This document shows positions 34,859 to 36,107 of a DNA stretch of 36,296 nt, piece by piece. The notes under the pieces are model-generated. The model worked only from the letters and a program-made list of their open reading frames with translations. It searched no databases and had not been told where the DNA came from. Both the position numbers and the translations under genes were made by a program. The stretch's first letter is position 1, and every line of letters starts with the position of its first letter. The stretch comes from Bacteroidota bacterium. Lineage in GTDB: Bacteria > Bacteroidota > Rhodothermia > Rhodothermales > UBA10348. The DNA is taken from positions 1 through 36,296 of the forward strand of contig JACZYD010000018.1 of the NCBI GenBank assembly GCA_022571255.1. The letters run 5' to 3'.

Positions 34859-34863
34859 TTGTG

Positions 34864-34950
34864 CGGAGGAGGAGGGATTCGAACCCTCGATACCCGTACA
34901 GGTATACTGGTTTTCGAGACCAGCGCATTCAACCACTCTGCCACCCCTCC
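34864..34950 (-). tRNA. tRNA-Ser (anticodon CGA)
   Basis: Minus: GGAGGGGTGGCAGAGTGGTTGAATGCGCTGGTCTCGAAAACCAGTATACCTGTACGGGTATCGAGGGTTCGAATCCCTCCTCCTCC G. Class II, acceptor GGAGGGG/CTCCTCC, anticodon loop CTCGAAA. Confidence 0.95.
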
Positions 34951-35345
34951 AATGTGCCTAAATGGCCTGAATAAGCTGTTTTTCGCTTCTCAGTACAACC
35001 AGCAATAAATGCTGGCCTGCAATAGGCCTGCAGTCACGACACCCAAACCCCTGGATTAAAGGGAATTTTATGTTCAGTGAAGGTGCAATTTACCACCTAC
35101 AGGAAAGCTAATCCGAGAAGAGATCGTCAAAATTATTTCTCTCCACTTGTTTCCGGATTTTCAGGTTTTGAATACTCGAATAACGCAGGGAGACGCCCTA
35201 AAATCTTGATGCTTGTTCTTGCGCCGCCGAGAGGTTTCAGAGCGGAATCTGCTTGATCTTCTTGACGCGGCCTTTCTTCATTTTGCCTGGAAGTTCTTTG
35301 TCAACTTGTCAGGAATGTACTGCGCCGGATGTGATCTCAGGTGGA

Positions 35346-35416
35346 AACCCTCGGTACCCTGTAACAGGTACGCTGGTTTAGCAAACCAGTGGTTTCAGCC
35401 ACTCACCCACCTCTCC
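35346..35416 (-). pseudogene. Truncated tRNA-Ser (anticodon GCT) gene lacking the 3' T-arm and acceptor 3' strand
   Basis: Minus: GGAGAGGTGGGTGAGTGGCTGAAACCACTGGTTTGCTAAACCAGCGTACCTGTTACAGGGTACCGAGGGTT, then TCCACCTGAGATCAC instead of CGAATCCCTC...CCTCTCC. Confidence 0.8.
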
Positions 35417-35609
35417 GTATGCGTTTCTGACGCGCATAAGGCGATTTTGTGCCTTCTGGCATTTATGCCAATTCCGCATACGTGCACTATCCGTGCAGTT
35501 GAGACCACGAATACCAGATCACCGGTGGTGATTGAGTACTGCGCCCCGCGAGCTTTGGGCCGGGAGCACATGGTCATTGCAGGCGCCAAAGTTACGGAGA
35601 TTCGCGGCA

Positions 35610-36107
35610 TCATTCAACGCGGATATCAACAAGATCAAGCATATTGACGTGGGACCAGGTCTTTCTATTTTTTATGTCTCGAATCACGCTCTTGGACACC
35701 CCGTGGTGGCGGGCTATTTCGGCGTGGCTCTGATACGGCCAGATTAGCGCCGCCTTTATGCTCTTCACGTCCTTTTCCGTCAGCTTGGCTCTTCCGTTAC
35801 GTGAACCTCTGGCCTGGCGATCCTTACTCACCTTGTCCTGCATGTTCTGTAACTGGCTACCGCCACGTAAATGCCTCGGATTACAGCAGGCGGGATTATC
35901 GCACAGGTGCATCACAACGGGTGGCTGATCACCAGCATGTGTTAACCCGTATACCGTTCGGTGTGCTTTTCTGTCTTTCAGATTGTACTGAAACACCCCG
36001 TATCCGTCTCGATCTCTTTTCCCTTGCCACTCCCAGCAGTCATCAGGATCACATTTATTTATCGTTTTCCAGAATCTGGCTACGATTTTCTCTGATTTGG
36101 ACTTCAT
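35610..36107 (-). CDS. HNH endonuclease with C-terminal helix-turn-helix-like region (homing-type)
   Basis: ARFWKTINKCDPDDCWEWQGKRDRDGYGVFQYNLKDRKAHRTVYGLTHAGDQPPVVMHLCDNPACCNPRHLRGGSQLQNMQDKVSKDRQARGSRNGRAKLTEKDVKSIKAAL...HAEIARHHGVSKSVIRDIKNRKTWSHV. Confidence 0.92.
   Translation of the reverse strand: MKSKSEKIVARFWKTINKCDPDDCWEWQGKRDRDGYGVFQYNLKDRKAHRTVYGLTHAGDQPPVVMHLCDNPACCNPRHLRGGSQLQNMQDKVSKDRQARGSRNGRAKLTEKDVKSIKAALIWPYQSHAEIARHHGVSKSVIRDIKNRKTWSHVNMLDLVDIRVE

Follow-up and report, generated by a model that had tools for sequence, protein, structure and literature searches.

A tRNA-Ser(GCT) gene cut off in the T-loop as a probable element-borne 5' half at the distal end of an integrated element in a member of the Rhodothermales

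The window (the whole stretch of 36,296 nt that was analysed) carries, near its right end, an intact tRNA-Ser(CGA) gene, the 5' part of a tRNA-Ser(GCT) gene and an HNH endonuclease gene (Table 1). The truncated gene, hereafter the GCT half, lies on the minus strand with G1 at 35416, and its anticodon GCT, its long variable arm and the sequence as far as GAGGGTT, at about 35346, can all be recognised; it then diverges to TCCACCTGAGATC (also given as TCCACCTGAG), the intact GCT genes of all relatives reading TTCGAATCCC... at the point where the host copy breaks off. Because its 71 nt align to these intact genes, with a match of up to 93-94%, we regard the half as a genuine partial tRNA gene and not as a chance resemblance, and, judged from the relatives' genes, it lacks the remaining T-arm and the 3' strand of the acceptor stem. 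Neither ARAGORN nor Rfam called a tRNA at this position. When the window was searched for the GCT 3' half, as many as 3 mismatches being allowed, the sole match fell on the 3' end of the adjacent tRNA-Ser(CGA) gene (34865-34883, 2 mismatches). A preliminary description of this DNA had reported a tRNA-Ser(GCT) gene cut off in the T-loop, with no 3' half in its flanks, and both observations are borne out, the first by the sequence and the alignment and the second by this search. A split or intron-containing tRNA gene was rejected, as the window is without a GCT 3' half.

Table 1. Features at the right end of the window
Feature	Position	Strand	Basis
Intact tRNA-Ser(CGA) gene, interpreted as the gene restored at the end distal to the integrase (attR)	34863..34950	-	ARAGORN, Rfam
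Segment of 395 bp between GCT half and intact tRNA-Ser(CGA), holding the second arm site; no gene recognised	34951..35345	.	
Distal end of the inferred integrated element, to contig end	34951..36296	.	CGA 5' flank (alaS-pcrB) on C82
Putative arm-type double site TGCAGGCCTATTGCAGG, 11-bp period, upstream of intact tRNA-Ser(CGA)	35016..35032	-	
tRNA-Ser(GCT) gene, 5' part only (nt 1-71, as far as the T-loop)	35346..35416	-	Sequence and alignment
Putative arm-type double site TGCACGGATAGTGCACG, 11-bp period, upstream of GCT half	35481..35497	-	
Phage-type HNH endonuclease gene, 165 aa, 194 bp upstream of GCT half	35610..36107	-	Pfam HNH_3

The HNH protein is about 40-46% identical to HNH proteins of phages, and a degraded relative of its gene is found in a related genome (G006, L094), at a comparable spacing of 157 bp upstream of a tRNA-Ser(TGA) gene, where no 5' stub lies within 19 kb upstream of the pair. 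No integrase remains were found in the 395-bp segment, which is single-copy in the assembly.

The host assembly (3.29 Mb in 205 contigs, 99% complete, 1.78% contamination) contains intact tRNA-Ser genes with the anticodons CGA, TGA and GGA, and a search of it for a second tRNA-Ser(GCT) found no intact copy. It is likewise without tRNA-Asp, -Asn and -Val, so that the missing GCT gene is uninformative; the tRNAs missing from the assembly reflect the assembly itself. AGC and AGU account for 24% of Ser codons in 14 long ORFs of the window, and a GCT tRNA must therefore exist. The suggestion that AGC/AGU decoding would be compromised was rejected on both grounds, and the half most likely does not mark a lost essential tRNA. 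In relatives, tRNA-Ser(GCT) adjoins atpG on the downstream side; host atpG, on contig C90, reaches the contig end 560 bp away with no tRNA in that stretch, and the chromosomal GCT gene, expected downstream of atpG, would sit in an assembly gap. Two short ORFs 3' of atpG (G000:C90:1-560) head to the contig end, at the place where relatives carry tRNA-Ser(GCT). On another host contig, a weak Rfam tRNA match of 30 bits is located in a stretch (G000:C57:25405-25603; L038:106-304) with outer ends, about 200 nt apart, for which acceptor-stem pairing is feasible (GCGCCCG / CGGGCGT); the stretch may be a tRNA-like gene interrupted by an insertion, or the structure may be due to chance.

When the host genome was searched with the region, a second cut tRNA was found, namely the 5' part of a tRNA-Ser(CGA) gene (C82:23395-23468), which ends at GAGGGTT, the same base at which the GCT half breaks off. 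Beginning about 160 bp past the break point of this stub is a 363-aa tyrosine recombinase that matches Pfam Phage_integrase (E 3.6e-29) and has the R, HxxR, H and Y residues all present. The stub is preceded by alaS-pcrB; the order alaS-pcrB-tRNA-Ser(CGA) is kept in two relatives (G016 and G008) and alaS-tRNA-Ser(CGA) in a third (G004), and since this order is conserved in the family, C82 represents the chromosomal 5' side of tRNA-Ser(CGA). This upstream side alone was matched in relatives in the empty-site comparison for the host island. The 5' part of the intact tRNA-Ser(CGA) gene in the window is identical to the C82 stub over about 69 nt, and outside this shared part there is no similarity on either side. 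We infer that C82 and the window, two separate contigs that both end inside the island, are the two ends of one island, with about 34881-34950 of the window gene read as element-borne and its 3' part as chromosomal. The GCT half would then be 395 bp in from the distal boundary of the island, and it is 0.9 kb from the contig end. Named genomes and viral contigs scanned with the C82 integrase yielded distant relatives alone (22-38%). A partial tyrosine recombinase is also present on the opposite strand just downstream of the host tRNA-Thr(CGT) gene (G000:C143:10377-11221), which may mark a further decayed tRNA island.

Direct repeats that are short and recur with a period of 11 bp are a typical feature of integrase arm sites, and we take the repeats of this kind listed in Table 1 to be putative arm sites from their sequence. 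The repeat near the CGA gene is the sole period-11 repeat with at least 7 matches in the window; its words are of the TGCAGG type, whereas those near the GCT half are of the TGCACG type and have just 6 matching bases. The pattern TGCASG-N5-TGCASG has five matches in the 3.29 Mb of the assembly, three of which coincide with the three half-tRNA sites (on the integrase side in C82, and upstream of the intact tRNA-Ser(CGA) gene and of the GCT half, at 82 and 81 bp, respectively), the other two being elsewhere. In C82 the integrase-side arm is located 85 bp past the break point; after the GCT break point there is none within 300 bp, and the next, at 313 bp, serves the CGA gene. The chromosomal flank before the C82 stub contains no such repeat. 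Because arm repeats lie upstream of the GCT half and the flank of the C82 stub has none, the half resembles the element side of an attachment site and not a chromosomal stub. The arm repeats aside, the upstream regions of the GCT half and the CGA gene show no significant similarity, a score as high being reached by 7% of random segments.

These observations bear on the alternatives. The GCT half could be the stub of the chromosomal gene itself, left after integration of a 5'-type element whose restored copy lies in unassembled DNA; the position of GCT after atpG in relatives and the course of host atpG towards a contig end agree with this, the orientation of C90 being one that could join the right end of the window. 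We nevertheless consider it unlikely, since the arm repeats and the phage-type HNH gene upstream of the half are expected for the element side, no arm repeat precedes the one known chromosomal stub, and the intact tRNA-Ser(CGA) gene downstream of the half would require a rearrangement. An assembly chimera, in which similar elements at tRNA-Ser(CGA) and tRNA-Ser(GCT) were misjoined in the 395-bp segment, has in its favour the fragmentation and contamination of the assembly and the nearness of the site to a contig end; the segment is single-copy, though, with nothing to mislead an assembler, and we hold this explanation to be improbable. Ordinary decay, in which a deletion removed the 3' end of a tandem tRNA-Ser(GCT) copy and mobile elements played no part, is very unlikely even with tandem GCT-TGA serine tRNA genes known in the order (G021 and G019), as the break falls at the exact base of the integrase-associated CGA stub, the 5' 71 nt are otherwise intact, and arm repeats and an HNH gene adjoin the half.

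Relatives of the C82 integrase within the order often adjoin tRNA genes, and many sit after an intact tRNA, which is the ordinary case. Three, however, sit after a tRNA stub, a 5' part that breaks off beyond the anticodon loop or stem, in the genomes G067 (Ser-CGA), G078 (Ser-TGA) and G029 (Leu-TAA). In each of these the stub, the integrase and then an intact tRNA with the same anticodon follow one another on one contig and one strand, over a distance from stub to intact tRNA of 21.6 kb, 10.7 kb and about 6 kb, respectively, with the 5' half common to both. An intact tRNA with an upstream 5' fragment on the same strand, the arrangement that defines the 5'-fragment class, is thus present in all three. 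In three congeners (G030, G040 and G049), the two flanks of the G078 island (identities of 75-82% and 84-90%) meet at a single intact tRNA-Ser(TGA) gene, and the 10.6-kb insert has no match at this empty site in any of them. From the layout of the three islands, together with the G078 empty site, we conclude that such an element brings the 5' half of its target and repairs the gene at its far end. For G067, an empty site was sought in G030 and G040, with which its flanks are not shared; for G029, just one other genome has the flank gene, and the stretch analysed there is without a tRNA. Repeats with an 11-bp period occur at both ends of the island in the host, G067 and G029, at one end in the interval from stub to integrase and at the other ahead of the restored gene, and the word common to the two ends differs from island to island (TGCAGG, GATAGCA and CGTAGCA, respectively); G078 has the repeat pair on the integrase side and a single arm word at the distal end. 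A GCT gene in G012, at which a contig ends in the T-loop, was considered as a second case and rejected, as the contigs overlap by about 21 bases in the gene, as at an assembly fork.

In the 21.6-kb island of G067, genes resembling a type I restriction-modification system were recognised by reading the ORFs (L145 and L146). Two large proteins encoded on islands, about 530 and 600 aa long (L147:7431-9017, minus strand, and L148:3937-5751, plus strand), have no Pfam match; by eye, they contain a stretch like a polymerase motif (VELDYDNLHIAM and VELDLSSAHFAI), and are perhaps replication proteins. In two different genomes, a degenerate inverted copy of a tRNA 5' half, derived from the same tRNA, lies between an intact tRNA gene (Cys and Arg-ACG) and the integrase (L119:2660-2700 and L140:2636-2670, both plus strand).

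Our preferred reading, to which we assign a probability of roughly 0.7, is that the GCT half is an element-borne 5' tRNA half within the distal end of a mobile element that has integrated here. The integration or excision scar entertained in the preliminary description was right in kind, the arm repeats marking the half as element-borne. Elements of this group would bring with them the 5' half of the tRNA gene that they target, with integrase arm sites ahead of it, and the tyrosine integrase would recombine inside the tRNA, at the T-loop in the host and at the anticodon loop in the islands of the three relatives. Integration would leave the chromosome's own 5' half and its promoter as a stub ahead of the integrase gene, and at the far end the 5' half of the element would join the chromosomal 3' half, so that a working tRNA is restored whose transcription would start in element DNA. 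The occupied target in the host would be tRNA-Ser(CGA), with stub and integrase on C82 and the restored gene lying in the window. A further half of this sort, equipped with an arm site of its own, would be the GCT half, from an older GCT-directed element nested in, or in tandem with, the CGA element. What the data show directly are the sequences, the layout of stub, integrase and intact gene, the empty site in one relative and the arm repeats; the recombination steps, the binding of the arms by the integrase and this nested or tandem origin are inferred. An integrase-side end that would belong to the GCT half, i.e. a second arm with an integrase, was not found in the sequence following it, and the other end of its element may lie in unassembled DNA. 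Three histories fit the half: a tandem arrangement with an older element of the GCT type, nesting of such an element at a site outside any tRNA gene, and a double attachment site. It is unlikely that one element has Ser-GCT and Ser-CGA halves, each with its own arm sites, as alternative attachment sites by which it integrates into and repairs different serine tRNA genes. The half tRNA is most likely explained by a known, uncommon mode of integration, and the second half is an unusual detail.

Attachment to a 5' half is seldom met in bacteria, according to a review (PMC8371274), and recombination on the 5' side of tRNA genes is considerably rarer (PMC6563490). In the Islander collection, 159 of 3,919 islands have a 5' tDNA fragment, the other 3,760 carrying the 3' half, the usual type (PMC4383910). 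The 5'-fragment islands (PMC4383910) resemble the islands of the three relatives in that the fragment lies upstream of the intact tRNA on the same strand with a tyrosine integrase between them, and their crossover takes place in the T-loop or the anticodon region, as proposed here; the host island differs in being split over contigs and in having a second, different tRNA 5' half. The archaeal pTN3-like elements of Thermococcales likewise attach to the tRNA 5' half, and the restored tRNA is expressed from element DNA, but their integrase genes are split on integration ('suicidal'), whereas that of the host is whole, beside the stub (PMC8371274). CalSub-E1, in a tRNA-Ser gene of Ca. Caldiarchaeum subterraneum, is reported as the sole such case among 39 tRNA-targeting elements and, unlike the host, is archaeal (PMC6563490). 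Elements that are nested or adjacent at a tRNA gene are known from NitEve-E7 in NitEve-E6 (PMC6563490) and from tandem islands in Islander; by comparison, the host shows one end only of the inner or older element.

What appeared to be the loss of an essential tRNA thus becomes a marker of a rare mode of integration, and tRNA counts from metagenome assemblies call for caution. Elements with a 5' half would swap the host's tRNA promoter for their own, the host promoter then facing the integrase. With four cases in one bacterial order, and relatives of the integrase in the ordinary mode, the switch between 3'-half and 5'-half capture is open to study.
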